NCBI RefSeq assembly: GCF_020544405.1
Contig: NZ_CP065410.1
Location: 5,456,001-5,520,000, forward strand
Length of the DNA stretch: 64,000 nt
Direction of reading: 5' to 3'
Origin: Pseudomonas sp. IAC-BECa141
GTDB lineage: Bacteria > Pseudomonadota > Gammaproteobacteria > Pseudomonadales > Pseudomonadaceae
The position numbers were made by a program, and so were the translations under genes. The notes under the pieces were generated by a model that made no database searches, was not told where the DNA came from, and saw only the letters and a list, made by a program, of their open reading frames with translations. Below, one piece after another: positions 37,664 through 43,938 of the stretch. Each line of letters starts with the position of its first letter. Within the stretch, counting starts at the first letter, position 1.

Positions 37664-38659
37664 TTACTTCGCGACGGTCGGCGGCGGGCTGACGCCGAAT
37701 CGGGTGCGGTATTCACTCGGCGCCAGCCCGGTGATTTTCTTGAACGTCGCGCGAAAAGCTCCCGGGTCCTGATAACCCACCGTCCAGGCAATATGGTCGA
37801 TGGTGCCATTGGTGAACTCGAGCATTTCCCGAGCCTTGCCGACCCGCAGATGCTGACAGTATTCGGTGGGTTTAAGACCGGTCGCCGCACGAAACCGCCG
37901 CAGAAAAGTGCGCTCCTCCAGACCTGCGCGTTCGGCCATCGCCGTCAGTGAGACATCGGTCGCGCCATTGCCTTGCAGCCAGTGCTGAACCTTGAGAATC
38001 GCGCCGTCGCCGTGATTGAGAATCGGCGCAAAATTGCTTCCGCACTCGCTTGCGCTGTCGCTGTGCTCCACCACCAGAAACCGCGCAGTGCTGCTGGCGA
38101 TGCTCGGCCCGAGCAAGCGGTCCACCAGCCGCAAGCCAAGCTCGGACCAGGCCATCAGCCCTGCCGTGGTAATCAGGTCACCATCGTCGACAATCGGCGT
38201 GTCGGCCTTGAGCCTGATGTTGGGGTAACACTCGGCGAAGGCCTTGGCCGACGTCCAGTGCGTGGTCGCGCTGCGACCGTCGAGCAAGCCGCTTTCGGCC
38301 AGCAACCACGAGCCCACACAGACCCCACCGAGTGTCGCGCCCCGCGCATGTTGCTCACGTAACCAGGGGATCAGACCGGCCGGCATCTGTGCAGCGGAAA
38401 AACCGGCGATGGACGGTGGGATCAGTACCGCCAGCAAACCGTTTTCGGCACCGGGAAGGCTGTCGTAAACGCGCACGGGGGGCTGATCACCGTCGACCTG
38501 CCAATGACTGATCCGCAGCAGTGGCAGCTGTGCCGCCTGATGCTCGGCAGCGATCCGGTTGGCCACCCCGAACAGATCGGTCAGGCCATGTACCGCCGCC
38601 ATTTGCGCGCCGGGATAGATCAGCACGCCGAGCTCCGCGACGATCCTTTCAGCAGCCAT
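37664..38659 (-). CDS. GlxA-family AraC-type transcriptional regulator
   Basis: 331 residues from the ATG at 38659. The amino half is a DJ-1/PfpI class I amidotransferase-like domain (ELGVLIYPGAQMAAVHGLTDLF; LGGVCVGSWLLAESGLLDG near residue 118), the carboxyl third an AraC helix-turn-helix pair (LTAMAERAGLEERTFLRRFRAATGLKPTEYCQHLRVGKAREML and IAWTVGYQDPGAFRATFKKITGLAPSEYR, marked here by their cores). It is divergent from the cysteine hydrolase gene with about 100 bp between, the normal geometry for a regulator and its target. Confidence 0.9.
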   Translation of the reverse strand: MAAERIVAELGVLIYPGAQMAAVHGLTDLFGVANRIAAEHQAAQLPLLRISHWQVDGDQPPVRVYDSLPGAENGLLAVLIPPSIAGFSAAQMPAGLIPWLREQHARGATLGGVCVGSWLLAESGLLDGRSATTHWTSAKAFAECYPNIRLKADTPIVDDGDLITTAGLMAWSELGLRLVDRLLGPSIASSTARFLVVEHSDSASECGSNFAPILNHGDGAILKVQHWLQGNGATDVSLTAMAERAGLEERTFLRRFRAATGLKPTEYCQHLRVGKAREMLEFTNGTIDHIAWTVGYQDPGAFRATFKKITGLAPSEYRTRFGVSPPPTVAK

Positions 38660-38760
38660 TGTCAGTTTTCCCCTGTGTATTGTCGGTGCGGCCAATCCTC
38701 GAAAACGTGGCCAGCACCAATACTGAATCCACACCTACCCATAACGTCGAGGACACACCC

Positions 38761-39315
38761 ATGGCCAAGCAAGCGCTCATCGTAGTCGATATCCAGAACG
38801 ACTACTTCCCCCAAGGCAAGTGGCCGCTGGCCGGCGCCGACGCCGCCGCCGACAACGCCGCCCGGTTGATCGCGGCATTCCGCGAGGCCGGCGATTCGGT
38901 GGTGCACATCCGCCACGAATTCACCTCGCCCGAGGCGCCGTTTTTCACACCCGGCTCCGAAGGCGCGAAACTGCATCCGAAAGTGCTCAACCGCGCCGAC
39001 GAGCCGGTAGTGCTCAAGCATTTCGTCAACTCGTTCCGCGAAACCGAACTGCAATCGATCCTCGAAGAACAAGGCATCAAGGAGCTGGTGGTGGTCGGCA
39101 GCATGAGCCATATGTGCGTCGACGGCATCACCCGTGCGGCGGCAGATCTGGGTTACACCGTCACGGTAATCCACGACGCCTGCGCCACCCGAGACCTGGA
39201 ATTCAACGGCCTGACCGTGCCTGCCGCCCATGTGCATGCGGCGTTCATGTCGGCGCTGGGGTTTGCCTATGCCAGCGTGGTGTCCACCGACGAGTTCCTC
39301 GCCGCCAGCCGCTGA
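38761..39315 (+). CDS. Cysteine hydrolase, isochorismatase family
   Basis: 184 residues from the ATG at 38761. The catalytic triad of the isochorismatase-like fold is visible: Asp in LIVVDIQNDYF near residue 10, Lys in VLKHFVNSF near 84, and Cys in GSMSHMCVDGITRAAADLG near 119. Related enzymes include nicotinamidase, ureidoacrylate and biuret hydrolases; the substrate is not evident. Probably controlled by the divergent GlxA-type regulator. A strong terminator follows. Confidence 0.9.
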   Translation: MAKQALIVVDIQNDYFPQGKWPLAGADAAADNAARLIAAFREAGDSVVHIRHEFTSPEAPFFTPGSEGAKLHPKVLNRADEPVVLKHFVNSFRETELQSILEEQGIKELVVVGSMSHMCVDGITRAAADLGYTVTVIHDACATRDLEFNGLTVPAAHVHAAFMSALGFAYASVVSTDEFLAASR

Positions 39316-39344: not shown

Positions 39345-39374
39345 GCGCCCGCCTCGTTGCGGGCGCTTTTGTTT
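39345..39374 (+). terminator. Intrinsic terminator after the cysteine hydrolase
   Basis: GCGCCCGC-CTCGTT-GCGGGCGC forms a perfect 8-bp GC stem followed by TTTTGTTT. Confidence 0.9.
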
Positions 39375-39389
39375 GTGTGTCACAAAAAT

Positions 39390-39401
39390 CTCACGCGTGA
39401 G
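39390..39401. promoter_or_regulatory. Putative operator, upstream copy of CTCACGCGTGAG
   Basis: A perfect 12-bp palindrome lying just upstream of the probable -35 (TTGATG at 39405) of the yjfI promoter. An identical second copy starts 46 bp further on. The regulator is unknown. Confidence 0.65.
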
Positions 39402-39404
39402 CCA

Positions 39405-39433
39405 TTGATGGCATTTTGATTTGGCTGTAGTGT
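39405..39433 (+). promoter_or_regulatory. Probable sigma-70-type promoter of the yjf cassette
   Basis: TTGATG, a 17-bp spacer and TAGTGT; +1 would fall near 39440. The -10 is weak, consistent with an activated or tightly held promoter. It is bracketed by the two palindromes. A sigma-54 site was looked for (GG-N10-GC) and does not fit the spacing. Confidence 0.45.
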
Positions 39434-39435
39434 CG

Positions 39436-39447
39436 CTCACGCGTGAG
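39436..39447. promoter_or_regulatory. Putative operator, downstream copy of CTCACGCGTGAG
   Basis: Second exact copy of the 12-bp palindrome, covering the expected transcription start and ending 23 bp before the yjfI ATG. A protein bound here would block transcription; binding at both copies could loop or coat the promoter. Confidence 0.65.
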
Positions 39448-39470: not shown

Positions 39471-40139
39471 ATGAAAAGCCGCTCCCCCGCCACCAAGTCA
39501 GAGAGCCCAAAGGGAGTGCGCTCGACACCGTCCGCGAAAAAACCGTCGAGCTTCTACATGAAGCAGATGCGCGCGGGCCTGGCTGCCGCCGGTTATGTGA
39601 AACACGAAACTTGGGTGCTTCCGGAAAACCGGAGCTTGCTCAAGCAAATGGAGCAACAGCTACGCCAACCGATTCTGGCTGGCTCTTTCATGTCGGAGAA
39701 TTACATGAGCGCAGGCAACAACTGGAACATCGATAGCCTCTACAACGCTTTCAAGGCGCTGGACGAGGTGGCTTCGCAAGAGATCACGCTGTCTCTGATC
39801 CAGAGCTCCGAACCCAGCCTCAAGCTGGAAATGAACGAATTCGGCGGTCTGCCGATTCACATCGCCCTCGCCGGTCAGCAGATCATCGTCGACACCGTGC
39901 TGGTGGACATCGATTCGATCACCGACGTGCGCGCTTTCAACGACGCCGTGCTGCGCAGCCGGGAAATGTTCCCGCTGTCGTCGATCGGCATCGAGACCAT
40001 GCCCAACGGCCAGACCGTCTACAACATGTTTGGTGCACTGAGTGCCGATTCGAGCCTGACCAACGTGGTCACCGAGGTGAAAACCCTGGTCGACAACGTG
40101 CAGCGCGCCAGCGAAGCCTTCGAACACTTCTTCAAGTAA
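39471..40139 (+). CDS. yjfI: YjfI-like protein (DUF2170)
   Basis: 222 residues; first gene of a six-gene cassette. The amino part is basic and low in complexity (KSRSPATKSESPKGVRSTPSAKKPS). Residues 30-65 (FYMKQMRAGLAAAGYVKHETWVLPEN) look like a short DNA-contacting helix region, and the rest is the DUF2170 fold (SFMSENYMSAGNNWNIDSLYNAFKALDEV; GIETMPNGQTVYNMFGALS). Homologous to E. coli YjfI by context and family. Function unknown; the first-gene position and basic end leave open that it regulates the cassette. Confidence 0.86.
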   Translation: MKSRSPATKSESPKGVRSTPSAKKPSSFYMKQMRAGLAAAGYVKHETWVLPENRSLLKQMEQQLRQPILAGSFMSENYMSAGNNWNIDSLYNAFKALDEVASQEITLSLIQSSEPSLKLEMNEFGGLPIHIALAGQQIIVDTVLVDIDSITDVRAFNDAVLRSREMFPLSSIGIETMPNGQTVYNMFGALSADSSLTNVVTEVKTLVDNVQRASEAFEHFFK

Positions 40140-40156
40140 TCAACAGGGAATATCCA

Positions 40157-40855
40157 ATGACTCAGTCCATCTGGAGCAAGTTGTTCACCGCGCTGCGCGG
40201 CGGCGCCAACGAAGTCGGCGAAGCGATCGCCGACCAACAGGCCCTGCGCATCCTCGATCAGGAAATCCGTGACGCCGACAGCGCGCTGTCCAACGCCCGT
40301 CGCGAACTGGTCACCATCATGGCCAAGCACAAACTGTCTGCCGACCGCGTGAGCGAGTACGAAGCCAAGATCAAGGACCTGGAAGCCAAGGCCGTTTCCG
40401 CCCTGAACGCCGGCCGTGAAGATCTGGCACTGGAAGTGGCCGAAGCCATCTCGACCCTGACCAACGACCTGGGCGTCGAGAAAAAACAGAGCGACGAGTT
40501 CGGCACCTACGCCGACAACATGCGCAAGGACATCAACAAGGCCGAAGCGCGGATCAAGAGCCTGCGCCAGCAAGTGGACATGGCCAAGGCCCGTGAAAGC
40601 GTGCAGAAGGCTCAGGTCAGCGCTTCGATCGCCAGCGGCGGCGCCAACGGCAAACTGGAAACCGCTGTCGGCACCCTTAACCGTCTGCAAGCCAAGCAGC
40701 AGCAACGCGCGGCCGAGCTGAGTGCTGCCGACGAACTGGCCGATGCTTCGACCGGCAACGACCTGGATCGCAAGCTGCGCGAAGCCGGCATCACGCCGAA
40801 CGAAGGCAGCGCCAACGCCATCCTCGAGCGTCTGAAGCAGAAGTCCGCCCAGTAA
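40157..40855 (+). CDS. yjfJ: PspA/IM30 family protein, YjfJ-like
   Basis: 232 residues, almost wholly coiled coil, of the PspA/IM30 (ESCRT-III-related) family that binds stressed inner membranes. Examples of heptad-rich stretches are DADSALSNARRELVTIMAKH near residue 36 and DINKAEARIKSLRQQVDMAKARESVQ near 118. The short amino end (TQSIWSKLFTALRGGANEVGEAI) is an amphipathic helix suited to membrane contact. There is no pspF, pspB or pspC nearby, so this is the YjfJ branch rather than the classical Psp system. An intrinsic terminator follows, so downstream genes are read at a lower level or from their own promoter. Confidence 0.9.
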   Translation: MTQSIWSKLFTALRGGANEVGEAIADQQALRILDQEIRDADSALSNARRELVTIMAKHKLSADRVSEYEAKIKDLEAKAVSALNAGREDLALEVAEAISTLTNDLGVEKKQSDEFGTYADNMRKDINKAEARIKSLRQQVDMAKARESVQKAQVSASIASGGANGKLETAVGTLNRLQAKQQQRAAELSAADELADASTGNDLDRKLREAGITPNEGSANAILERLKQKSAQ

Positions 40856-40978: not shown

Positions 40979-41629
40979 ATGGGATGGTTCAAAGATTTGC
41001 TCGGCACCAGCAACTGGCAGTCGGCCGCACCGGCGTCCAGGTCTGCCGGCGGCCCGCTCGGACTGGTGCAGGGCAAGGCGATCCGCTTCGACACGACCCT
41101 CGGCCTGTTGCTGGAGGGCAGCACCTCGGTACGGGTTCCCGACGCCCAGGCCATCTGGAGCGCCGGCTGGATCGACCTCGGTCAGTCGAACAAACTGCAT
41201 CGCTACTACCTGAACGATGAAGAATTCTGGGTACAGGTCCATGTCACCGGTGACGACCAGATCGAGTCGGTGACGCTGTTCAATTACGTCAGCTATGTGA
41301 CGGTCAACAGTAACGCCGAACTGCAGCGTCTGGCCGGCCCGAACAGCCTGATCGGCCTGCCGACCTATCGCCATGAAGGTGTCGAATACACCCGTGAATG
41401 GGGCACCGAACGCGGCCAGACCGAACTGGTGCCGCTCACCGAACAGGTGATCAACCCCGACGAGTCCTACACCATCAACCATCACTCGATGCTCTACGCC
41501 CGGGAAACCGGCCTGACCGATCGCCGCGAGCTCTTGCTGTTCTCCGTCGAGCAGGACGAAGAAGGCACGGTCAGCCTGAGCACTTCGCTGGGCATCTCGC
41601 TGTACACCACCGACTTGAGCACTATTTAA
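40979..41629 (+). CDS. yjfK: YjfK-like protein (DUF2491)
   Basis: 216 residues of the DUF2491 family, starting MGWFKDLLGTSNW at the ATG at 40979. Mostly beta-rich, with LVQGKAIRFDTTLGLLLEGST, LHRYYLNDEEFWVQVHVTGDD and a conserved tail SVEQDEEGTVSLSTSLGISLYTTDL. No signal peptide or membrane helix. Function unknown; a soluble or membrane-peripheral partner of the PspA-like protein is inferred from context only. Confidence 0.86.
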   Translation: MGWFKDLLGTSNWQSAAPASRSAGGPLGLVQGKAIRFDTTLGLLLEGSTSVRVPDAQAIWSAGWIDLGQSNKLHRYYLNDEEFWVQVHVTGDDQIESVTLFNYVSYVTVNSNAELQRLAGPNSLIGLPTYRHEGVEYTREWGTERGQTELVPLTEQVINPDESYTINHHSMLYARETGLTDRRELLLFSVEQDEEGTVSLSTSLGISLYTTDLSTI

Positions 41630-41642
41630 AAGGAAGTTTTCC

Positions 41643-42068
41643 ATGCTGGAAGCGTTGTCCATTTCCCTGAACAAAGCCGCACTGGTCGGTTTCGTCGCCT
41701 ACCTGATCGGCGCCGTGCTGCTGTTCATGCTGTTTCAGTTCGTCTACACCCGCGTCACGCCGCACAAGGAATTCGAGCTGATCCGTTCCGGCAACGTTGC
41801 CGCCGCCATCGCTCTGTCCGGCGCAATCATTGGCTTCGCGATTCCGGCGAGCAACGTGATCGCTCACTCGATCAACGTCCTCGACTTCGTCCTCTGGGCG
41901 GTGATCGCGGCGGTGGTGCAATTGCTGGCCTTCCTGGCGACCGGGCTGGTGCTCAAGGGCACGTCCCAGCGTATTGCCAACGGTGAAATCGCCTCGGGCA
42001 TTTATGTGGCGGCGGTGGCGATCAGCGTCGGTATGCTCAACGCCGCATGCATGACCCCGTCCTACTGA
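41643..42068 (+). CDS. yjfL: YjfL-like membrane protein (DUF350)
   Basis: 141 residues with four membrane helices (about 12-34, 49-71, 77-97 and 115-134), the DUF350/UPF0719 family. Conserved parts include FELIRSGNVAAAIALSGAIIGFAIPASNVIAHS and ITNGEIASGIYVAAVAISVGMLNAACM-like wording near the end. It lies 13 bp after yjfK and 17 bp before yjfM. DUF350 proteins recur beside PspA and ATP-grasp genes, but no activity is established. Confidence 0.9.
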   Translation: MLEALSISLNKAALVGFVAYLIGAVLLFMLFQFVYTRVTPHKEFELIRSGNVAAAIALSGAIIGFAIPASNVIAHSINVLDFVLWAVIAAVVQLLAFLATGLVLKGTSQRIANGEIASGIYVAAVAISVGMLNAACMTPSY

Positions 42069-42085
42069 TCGGCAGGAAGCCTGAG

Positions 42086-42778
42086 ATGAAACGAAGCAAG
42101 TACGTTCAACTGTCGCTGGCCGCTTCGGTGGCCCTGGCGATTTCCGGTGAAGTGGCCGCCCAGGAACAGCAACGCAACTTCCAGAGCGTCGAACAATGCG
42201 TCGACGCCGAAGTGGCACCGGATGTCTGCTCGAACGCCTATGTCGCAGCCCTGGCCGAGCACCGCCGTATTTCCCCGGCCTACGACGACAAGGCTGCCTG
42301 CGACGCGGACTTTGCCGCCGACTGGTGTCAGAAAAATTCCGCCGGCCGTTTCGTGCCGAAACTCGGCGGCTTCAAGGTGCCGCAGGACGGTGAGCCGGCG
42401 CAGAACCTCGATGCGATCGCCAATGCCCAGATGCCCGCCGGCGACGCCGCCGCCGTGCAGAGCAATCAGACCAGCACTTCGCACTCGTCCAGCGGTGCAG
42501 GCAACGGCTGGCTCACCGGATGGCTGATCGGCAATGCCATGAGCAACAACCGCGCGAGCGACTCGCGGCCGGTTTACCGTGAGCGCAATACCCGCCAGAC
42601 CTACGACACCTCGACGCTGAACCGCCGCATCGAATCGGCGCCGAGCCGCAGCCAGCGGGACTACGACAGCGATTACCGCAAACCGGTCAACGTCGCTGCG
42701 TCCACCTCCCGTGGCGGCTTCGGCAGCCAGTCCAGCGCACGCAGTGGTTGGGGCGGCTGGGGCCGTTCGAGCAGCTGA
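42086..42778 (+). CDS. yjfM: YjfM-like exported protein (DUF1190)
   Basis: 230 residues from the ATG at 42086, giving a signal-like segment (KRSKYVQLSLAASVALAISGEVAA). Four cysteines are in the mature region (VEQCVDAEVAPDVCSNAY; KAACDADFAADWCQKN), spaced like two disulfides. The last third is low in complexity, rich in serine, glycine and arginine, and ends GGFGSQSSARSGWGGWGRSSS. DUF1190 proteins are exported or membrane-tethered; role unknown. Two bases separate it from the ATP-grasp gene. Confidence 0.87.
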   Translation: MKRSKYVQLSLAASVALAISGEVAAQEQQRNFQSVEQCVDAEVAPDVCSNAYVAALAEHRRISPAYDDKAACDADFAADWCQKNSAGRFVPKLGGFKVPQDGEPAQNLDAIANAQMPAGDAAAVQSNQTSTSHSSSGAGNGWLTGWLIGNAMSNNRASDSRPVYRERNTRQTYDTSTLNRRIESAPSRSQRDYDSDYRKPVNVAASTSRGGFGSQSSARSGWGGWGRSSS

Positions 42779-42780
42779 CC

Positions 42781-43938
42781 ATGAAGAAGATCCACTGCGC
42801 CGAGCGCCACGACTGGAAGCAGACCGCCGAAAGCCTCGGCTTTCTGTTTCATACCATCGACGACGAGCCGTACTGGGACGAGAGCGCCTACTACCAGTTC
42901 ACGCTCGCGCAGATCGAGAACGATCTGGAGGATCCAACCACCGAGCTGCACGAGATGTGCATGGACCTGGTCGACCGCGTCGTGCACAGCGAAGAACTGC
43001 TGGATCGTCTGAGCATTCCGACGCCGTACTACGACATGATCCGAACGTCCTGGCTGGAAGGTCATCCGCATCTGTACGGGCGCATGGACTTCTCCTACAG
43101 CGGCAACGGCCCGGCGAAGCTGCTCGAACTCAACTACGACACGCCCACCAGCCTTTATGAGGCGTCGGCGTTCCAGTGGGGCTGGCTGGAGCAATGCATC
43201 GAGCGCGGGCTGCTGCCGCGCCATGCCGACCAGTTCAACAGCATCGACACCCGTCTGCACGAAGCCTTTGCCCAACTGAAACTCACGCGGCCGTTTTACT
43301 TCGCCTCGATGAAAGACTCGGTGGAAGACAAAGGCACCACGGATTATCTGCGGCTGATCGCAGAGAAAGTCGGCATCGAATCGCGGCATATCGACATCGA
43401 AGACATCGGCCTGAGCGCTGACGGTCGTTTCGTGGATCTTGAGGATCGCTGGATCCCGCACCTGTTCAAACTGCACGCCTGGGAATTCATCTTCCACGAG
43501 CCGTTCGGCGCGGCGATTGCCGGGTGCGACACCCAGTTTTTTGAACCGGCGTGGAAGTCGATCCTCTCCAACAAGGGCGCCCTGCCCCTGCTATGGGAGT
43601 TGCACAAGGGCCATCCGAATCTGCTGGCCGCGCACCTCGACCCGAATCCGGGCAGCGCGGTGCCCAAGGGCTGGGTGCGCAAACCGTACTTCTCCCGGGA
43701 AGGCGCCAACATCGAGTTGCAGACCGCCGAAGGTCTGATCGTCAAAGAGGATGGGCCCTACACCGATGCGCCCTTCATCCTGCAGGAATTTGCCCCATTG
43801 CCGAAGTTCGACGACAGCTACACGTTGATTGGCTCATGGGTGATCGGCGATCAGGCGGCGGGGATTGGTGTGCGGGAAGACAACAGCCTGATCACCAAGG
43901 ATTCGAGCCGGTTTCTGCCACATCTGATTCTCGATTGA
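42781..43938 (+). CDS. yjfC: Glutathionylspermidine synthase-like ATP-grasp ligase (YjfC-like)
   Basis: 385 residues of the glutathionylspermidine synthase amide-ligase family (GSP_synth). Marks include RMDFSYSGNGPAKLLELNYDTPTSLYEAS near residue 102 (ATP-grasp substrate loop), ILSNKGALPLLWELHKGHPNLL near 261 and EGLIVKEDGPYTDAPFILQEFAPLP near 318. The amidase half of the bifunctional E. coli Gsp enzyme is absent. Likely joins an amine to a peptide carboxylate; the true substrate of this branch is unknown. It ends the yjf cassette. Confidence 0.9.
   Translation: MKKIHCAERHDWKQTAESLGFLFHTIDDEPYWDESAYYQFTLAQIENDLEDPTTELHEMCMDLVDRVVHSEELLDRLSIPTPYYDMIRTSWLEGHPHLYGRMDFSYSGNGPAKLLELNYDTPTSLYEASAFQWGWLEQCIERGLLPRHADQFNSIDTRLHEAFAQLKLTRPFYFASMKDSVEDKGTTDYLRLIAEKVGIESRHIDIEDIGLSADGRFVDLEDRWIPHLFKLHAWEFIFHEPFGAAIAGCDTQFFEPAWKSILSNKGALPLLWELHKGHPNLLAAHLDPNPGSAVPKGWVRKPYFSREGANIELQTAEGLIVKEDGPYTDAPFILQEFAPLPKFDDSYTLIGSWVIGDQAAGIGVREDNSLITKDSSRFLPHLILD

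Follow-up and report, generated by a model that had tools for sequence, protein, structure and literature searches.

The twin palindromes that bracket the promoter of the yjf cassette in Pseudomonas sp. IAC-BECa141 are most probably the operators of an autorepressor, with YjfI, the product of the cassette's first gene, as the repressor, a reading drawn from comparative sequence analysis. An earlier note on this DNA had described the palindromes as the operator of a regulator that it could not name and had added that YjfI could be involved. Footprinting and genome-wide specificity bear out the operator, and the regulator need no longer go without a name, as the evidence points to YjfI: the sites follow the presence and the type of the YjfI N-terminus. 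If true, this would supply a widespread PspA-family cassette (yjf/bac), linked to biofilm and envelope stress, with a regulator, its operator and a mechanism that can be put to the test; the accessible parts of the literature found had either attributed control of the cassette to sigma-54 or not settled it.

All coordinates refer to the window, the whole stretch of 64,000 nucleotides analyzed (positions 5,456,001 to 5,520,000 of contig NZ_CP065410.1), and all genes of the cassette lie on its + strand. Open reading frames and family searches gave yjfI (39471..40139; DUF2170, 222 aa, the proposed autorepressor), yjfJ (40157..40855; PspA/IM30 family), yjfK (40979..41629; DUF2491), yjfL (41643..42068; DUF350), yjfM (42047..42778, start approximate; DUF1190) and yjfC (42748..43938, start approximate; glutathionylspermidine-synthase-like). 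The same families stand in the same order in E. coli yjfIJKLMC. The region upstream of the cassette (37664–39315) holds a gene for an AraC-type regulator (− strand) and one of the isochorismatase family (+ strand). A terminator-like hairpin (39345..39366, + strand) follows the 3' end of the latter, so that the cassette is probably its own transcription unit.

The two exact copies of CTCACGCGTGAG, with starts 46 bp apart, were found where the earlier note had placed them. The left putative operator (39390..39401, assigned to neither strand) lies directly 5' of a −35 element TTGATG (39405..39410, + strand) and the right one (39436..39447, likewise) falls on the expected +1, after a −10 element TAGTGT (39428..39433, + strand) at a spacing of 17 bp, an arrangement that agrees with the earlier description throughout. 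The yjf promoter was absent from the list returned by a consensus promoter scan of the window. In 100 dinucleotide-preserving shuffles of the window, exact matches averaged 0.02 and none of the 100 reached two, in support of the claim that the pair is not due to chance. With up to two mismatches allowed there was no excess in the window (5 matches vs. 5.87 expected), and the signal is therefore the exact pair. A whole-genome exact search (6,221,060 bases) returned these two sites and no third copy of CTCACGCGTGAG, and the paired pattern occurred once in the whole genome. The broader class TYACRYGTRA was not enriched in the genome, where it occurred at 18 places and its reversed control at 30; only the pair at the yjf promoter stands out, the motif class as such does not. 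The other four occurrences of TCACGCGTGA in the genome all fall within open frames (267 to 666 codons), which points to a single target for the putative regulator of the palindromes. With their flanks included, the two copies also make up a single inverted repeat of 18 nt with 94% complementarity. Its left arm, 5' of the −35 element, is outside any transcript from the yjf promoter, and an RNA hairpin is thus not the point of the repeat.

Across 398 genomes of the genus, CTCACGCGTGAG was present in at least one copy in 138 and a DUF2170 gene in 188. At least two copies were found in 84 genomes, all 84 of which carry a DUF2170 gene, and in 0 of the 210 genomes that lack one. Single copies, found in 54 genomes, scatter, since 27 of these are without DUF2170. 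Random spread of the 12-mer and a lack of conservation in relatives were the outcomes that the earlier note had named as contrary to its reading; paired copies instead go with DUF2170, and the palindromes are conserved at the yjfI promoters of relatives. As a mark of such promoters, a use the same note had suggested, the 12-mer serves in part: among 30 loci fetched with it and read by eye, 20 were yjfI promoters and 10 were single copies elsewhere. In one of the 84 genomes (G056) the yjfI promoter (L086) is of the TCACATGTGA type, from which it follows that its two copies of the 12-mer lie elsewhere.

Perfect palindromes are also typical of mobile repeats, structural elements and methylation sites, and the pair could in principle be of such a kind, with no role in transcription. 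This is hardly conceivable for sequences of which the genome holds two copies, at one promoter, and around and between which the sequence of relatives diverges while the palindromes, the step between them and the −35/−10 pair stay. From footprinting and genome-wide specificity, the CTCACGCGTGAG pair is best read as the putative operator of the yjf cassette, a well supported assignment. We classified the loci by a tetrapeptide in the N-terminal domain of YjfI, which is VKHE in the window (His45 codon at 39603..39605, + strand) and VKKE or VKRE in most relatives. For 35 VKHE loci, the step was 46 bp in 21, 45 bp in 3 and 44 bp in 4, and 7 had one exact site. In 34 of the 35, TTG follows the left site's 10-bp core at a distance of exactly 4 nt, and the spacer from there to TAnnnT is 17 bp long in 30 of these and 16 bp long in the remaining 4. 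The VKKE loci have another operator type, T(C/T)ACATGT(G/A)A, with sites mostly 22–23 bp apart (77/103) and a related YjfI N-terminus; Lysobacter, Hahella, Pseudoteredinibacter and P. aeruginosa PA7 are among its carriers. Not every locus shows the twin arrangement, as a single exact site was present in 7/35 VKHE, 12/103 VKKE and 22/45 VKRE loci. Two loci (L072 and L080) carry a REP-like stretch between operator/promoter and yjfI. They had been candidates for exceptions without an operator and were rejected as such, the operator being present beyond the REP-like stretch, about 165–190 bp farther upstream than in their kin.

Removal of duplicates left 206 distinct loci, in 184 of which YjfI has the N-terminal domain (long) and in 22 of which it does not (short). 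At least one exact T(C/T)ACNNGT(G/A)A was found upstream of 175/184 long genes, including one locus (L155) that was counted as having a site though an asymmetric one (TTACAGGTGA). The remaining nine long loci had site variants recognizable by eye: six, all of one clade, had sites one base off, of the CCACATGTAA and ACACATGTGA types (also read by eye), two had CTTACATGAAAG/CTTTCATGTAAG and one had a 1-bp centre. Among the short loci, 21 of 22 had no such palindrome, the exception being that of Pseudomonas sp. MF4836; E. coli YjfI, of 133 aa and without the N-terminal domain, has no such palindrome upstream either. Control stretches inside the coding region matched in 4/245 loci (duplicates included).

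The coupling extends to the type of site. All 35 VKHE loci had a GC, GT or AC centre (6 of the 35 had an AT-centred site as well), and the 148 VKKE/VKRE loci had an AT centre in 137, AG in 1, GC in 0 and no site in 10, one of which has an AT site farther upstream. One YjfI residue thus tracks the operator centre, VKHE with the GC type and VKKE/VKRE with AT. On a tree of 93 DUF2170 domains, built from few alignment columns, the H label changes once and the GC label twice, and a treekit pair test of the link between H and GC found one pair and had no power. The link comes down to one evolutionary change plus MF4836, strong as a pattern and weak as statistics. In L108 and L257, YjfI has VPKE in place of VKxE and the sites, TCACTGTGA and TCACAGTGA, have a 1-bp centre.

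An unlikely alternative to autorepression by YjfI is that the palindromes are bound by a different regulator whose gene lies elsewhere, with YjfI acting on the protein side only, as a co-regulator or chaperone of that regulator. DNA binding by YjfI is a prediction, and ExsC, a structural relative, regulates transcription without contact with DNA. Cassettes also begin with short YjfI genes that lack the domain, and these seem to be under other regulators: in other Gammaproteobacteria (L157, L158, L160–L169, L172) a different repeat, GACATA(A/T)TATGTC, lies upstream, and this repeat or its half was found in 13/22 short loci (complete in 7, with two complete copies in 6) and in 0/183 long loci, which makes it probable that another regulator serves the cassette in those lineages. 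Against a separate regulator stands the coupling of the sites to the presence and type of the YjfI N-terminus. The genes upstream of the cassette also vary (the longest open frame there fell into 18 families in 80 loci, by a crude grouping), and the cassette is plasmid-borne as well; its regulator should therefore travel with it. The plasmid cassettes of pQBR103 (L262) and pPma4326F (L263) combine CTTTCATGTAAGG/CCTTACATGAAAG-type arms with TTACATGTAA close to the start site, which makes a third layout of operators.

Genomes with two cassettes also bear on this question. Two DUF2170 genes were found in three genomes of the genus (G071, G354 and Pseudomonas sp. MF4836). In G071 a VKHE copy goes with TCACGCGTGA/TCACACGTGA and a VKKE copy with TCACATGTGA/TTACATGTGA, and in G354 a VPKE copy goes with TCACTGTGA/TCACAGTGA and a VKKE copy with TTACATGTAA/TTACATGTGA, all four genes being full length. 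One genome can thus hold two operator types, each fitting the gene in cis, for which a single outside regulator is not a ready explanation. The second cassette of MF4836 (loci L244/L075/L261 and L256) has lost the domain, and consists of a 28-codon frame, a DUF2170 reading from the internal start and an intact pspA. The DUF2170 domain of this damaged copy, 83% identical to the VKKE copy L107 and 42% to the intact paralogue, groups with VKKE/AT. The promoter of the damaged copy nevertheless carries two copies of TCACGCGTGA, which is the operator type of the undamaged VKHE paralogue. GC centres here appear for a second time, separately from the first, which is expected, in this one case, if the N-terminal domain reads the palindromes and the paralogue serves the damaged copy. 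Together with MF4836, the pairs of residue and operator would make up a compact natural specificity code for a small domain with no solved relative found by Foldseek. A further Pseudomonas YjfI without the N-terminal domain, in G015 (L092/L258), had no operator that we found upstream and no second copy in its genome.

The proposed DNA-binding domain of the window YjfI comprises residues 22–69 (39534..39677, + strand; helix, extended stretch, helix), as judged from alignment, model and profile matches. It is followed by DUF2170, a CesT/YbjN-like domain at residues 84–221 (39720..40133, + strand), which the Pfam match (PF09938, 150.4 bits against a cut-off of 27) places within the family and which is seconded by a fold match. 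In an alignment of relatives, Y, R, G, P, L, E and R of the N-terminal stretch are invariant and V-K, E and W nearly so. AlphaFold modeled the 48-residue domain with helices at 5–18 and 30–43 and an extended stretch between (pLDDT 87.5); in the full-length model residues 74–81 fell below a pLDDT of 50 and DUF2170 was confident. No Pfam family matched the first 83 residues of the window YjfI at the default threshold, and none the first 90 at E ≤ 1 × 10^1. In profile searches with 62 non-redundant N-termini, matches being counted at E ≤ 1, UrfF, "plasmid repression protein F" (NF041430), was matched by 48 (best E 3.4e-6), the MazE-like family (PF11455) by 25 (best E 3.2e-4) and a PHROG family named transcriptional regulator by 17 (best E 0.0097); other matches were scattered. 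The window's own N-terminus had no Pfam or PHROG match at E ≤ 1 and none to UrfF or MazE-like, its sole NCBIfam match being BacA. Single relatives scored below the curated cut-offs of UrfF (11.6–15.7 bits vs. 100) and MazE-like (14.4 vs. 22), so that the likeness of these families to the N-terminal domains of many relatives is a weak profile likeness. The UrfF and MazE-like models have 68 and 65 positions and thus represent small proteins, whereas the YjfI domain is fused to a CesT-like domain. RSF1010 protein F is presumably a relative of UrfF. Foldseek of the domain model against the PDB found no solved relative (best E 9.3).

Membership in the ribbon-helix-helix repressors, our initial guess, was not established. 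Those repressors have the order strand-helix-helix and a two-stranded intermolecular sheet, whereas the monomer model of the YjfI domain runs helix, extended stretch, helix, and there was no PDB match. A plasmid search with one N-terminus returned three records, all annotated YjfI. Presence of the domain in Rhizobium was rejected, because the long match that tblastn gave in R. phaseoli extends into a neighbouring ion-channel gene; the annotated YjfI is 148 aa long in four Rhizobium records.

The P. aeruginosa bac operon is a homologous cassette, in which a DUF2170 protein comes first and a PspA-like protein follows as in the window. PA7 (L194), which represents P. aeruginosa in our data, encodes a 206-aa YjfI/BacA with the N-terminal domain and has the twin sites TTACATGTGA/TTACATGTAA upstream. 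The NCBI BacA model (NF050185) is likewise 206 aa long; against its cut-off of 300 bits PA7 scored 338.9 and the window YjfI 211.3, which makes the latter a homologue outside the equivalog. The BacA crystal chain 8q8o, of 146 aa, matches PA7 residues 61–206 and starts just after Met60, the proposed internal start, which suggests that the crystallized BacA lacks the putative DNA-binding half. Study and crystallization of BacA without this half would explain why the "regulator" looked like a chaperone. The earlier note knew of no described regulator for the site; none for the site appeared among the literature matches listed, but in the accessible text of PMC10948618 BacA was already proposed, on proteomic grounds, as a negative controller of the bac operon. 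According to the same text, five downstream operon products rose 6.1- to 13.5-fold in a PA14 bacA insertion mutant, where effects of the transposon insertion itself are possible, and the P. aeruginosa DUF2170 domain forms dimers with a chaperone fold. The terms "palindrom", "operator" and "DNA-binding" are absent from PMC10948618, and its accessible part yielded no N-terminal domain of BacA. Among the matches listed by a literature search that left most subscription journals outside, no title or abstract beginning dealt with the operator or the N-terminal domain.

For P. aeruginosa bac a sigma-54 promoter was proposed from sequence (PMC2587700 and PMC10948618, accessible text); the promoter proposed for the window is sigma-70-like. 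Control as in classical Psp, by an RpoN promoter and an enhancer-binding activator, would need a conserved GG-N10-GC before the operon. The window has one such motif, at 39423–39436, across the −10 element, its last base being the first of the right palindrome; it is common to 12/35 VKHE loci at that place, absent in 23/35, and present in 4/96 VKKE and 5/42 VKRE loci, below the shuffle expectation of 7.6 in each, so that it is not conserved. In favour of sigma-54, 24/96 VKKE and 22/42 VKRE loci having a site lack a −35-like TTG in the 12 nt next to the left site; against it, the layout of TTG, 16–18 bp and TAnnnT was found in 34/35 VKHE, 66/96 VKKE and 19/42 VKRE loci having a site. The P. aeruginosa sigma-54 site was moreover placed relative to the annotated start, which the match of 8q8o to PA7 indicates is probably internal, and PA7 has one GG-N10-GC inside the N-terminal coding region, about 40–53 nt before the annotated start (not matched to the published site). 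Taken together, sigma-54 control of these cassettes appears very unlikely.

In the autorepressor model, YjfI dimers would sit on the two palindromes through their N-terminal helix-extended-helix domains, and with one bound site against the −35 element and one at +1, RNA polymerase would be blocked. The CesT-like DUF2170 domain would bind PspA (YjfJ), and the most likely signal would be that PspA becomes engaged or released where the membrane is under stress, changing the amount of free YjfI that holds the promoter; to say which PspA state frees YjfI and which loads it would be a guess. In E. coli, PspA restrains a sigma-54 activator, PspF. As in the yjf proposal, PspA can there bind the partner that controls its operon; that partner is a sigma-54 activator in E. 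coli, whereas the yjf proposal has an autorepressor at a sigma-70-like promoter.

The putative YjfI–PspA link is based on gene order, one natural fusion, an AlphaFold BacA–BacB probability of 0.981 in the accessible part of PMC13092808 and an interaction mentioned as unpublished in that of PMC10948618. The fusion, in Alkalisalibacterium limincola (L243:2983-4329), joins the N-terminal domain, DUF2170 (71–206) and PspA (220–446) in one 449-codon frame. Foldseek of the YjfI DUF2170 domain returned 8q8o (2.9e-14), SigE (3.9e-4), AmyR (5.8e-4), YbjN (7.4e-4) and ExsC (2.2e-3), by which the modeled C-terminal domain of YjfI has the CesT/Tir chaperone fold. This fold is common to the CesT/ExsC/YbjN chaperone-regulators, as also described in the accessible text of PMC11237479 and PMC10948618, where no fused DNA-binding domain of the kind proposed for YjfI was encountered for these relatives.

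A tentative extension, to which we give somewhat less than even chances, is that one gene yields two proteins that set the switch: full-length, putatively DNA-binding YjfI and a DUF2170-only YjfI. In the window an in-frame GGAGA (at 39695) and ATG (at 39705, Met79) form the proposed internal start of the DUF2170-only protein (39695..39707, + strand), as suggested by sequence and Shine-Dalgarno (SD) pairing. An in-frame ATG at the domain border was found in 183/183 domain-bearing genes tested (best of one to three candidates each). The mean SD pairing energy was −9.8 at the internal start vs. −3.5 at the first start; 174/183 internal starts reached −6.6, the weakest being −6.1, compared to 1.9% of 214 internal ATGs in a control on the window. 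The amino acids around the internal start differ between clades. Upon resampling of synonymous codons an equally strong site arose in a median of 22.5% of draws, and 10/183 genes reached 5%, a control that is only mildly exceeded because the acidic linker favours GGAG by itself. At VKKE loci the ATG lies 6–8 nt after the −10 element in 61 of 66 measured, so that the mRNA there may be leaderless; at VKHE loci the distance is mostly 27–38 nt. Full-length YjfI would then be made from a weak first start and the short form from the strong internal SD and ATG. By binding PspA, and by pairing with the repressor or titrating it, the short form would let membrane stress be read via PspA into transcription without PspF or sigma-54. 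PA3732 is listed among the targets of RsmA, which has several sites there around the SD (accessible text of PMC4066749, with Brencic and Lory, 2009, as its source), and RsmA may tune the ratio of full-length to short form at the internal start.

Published responses of PAO1 to heat and copper are neither of them a simple joint induction of the operon. At elevated temperature the transcripts of PA3729 and PA3732 fall (log2 −3.5 and −1.05; accessible text of PMC4957987), and under copper PA3731 falls and PA3730 rises (accessible text of PMC6444534).
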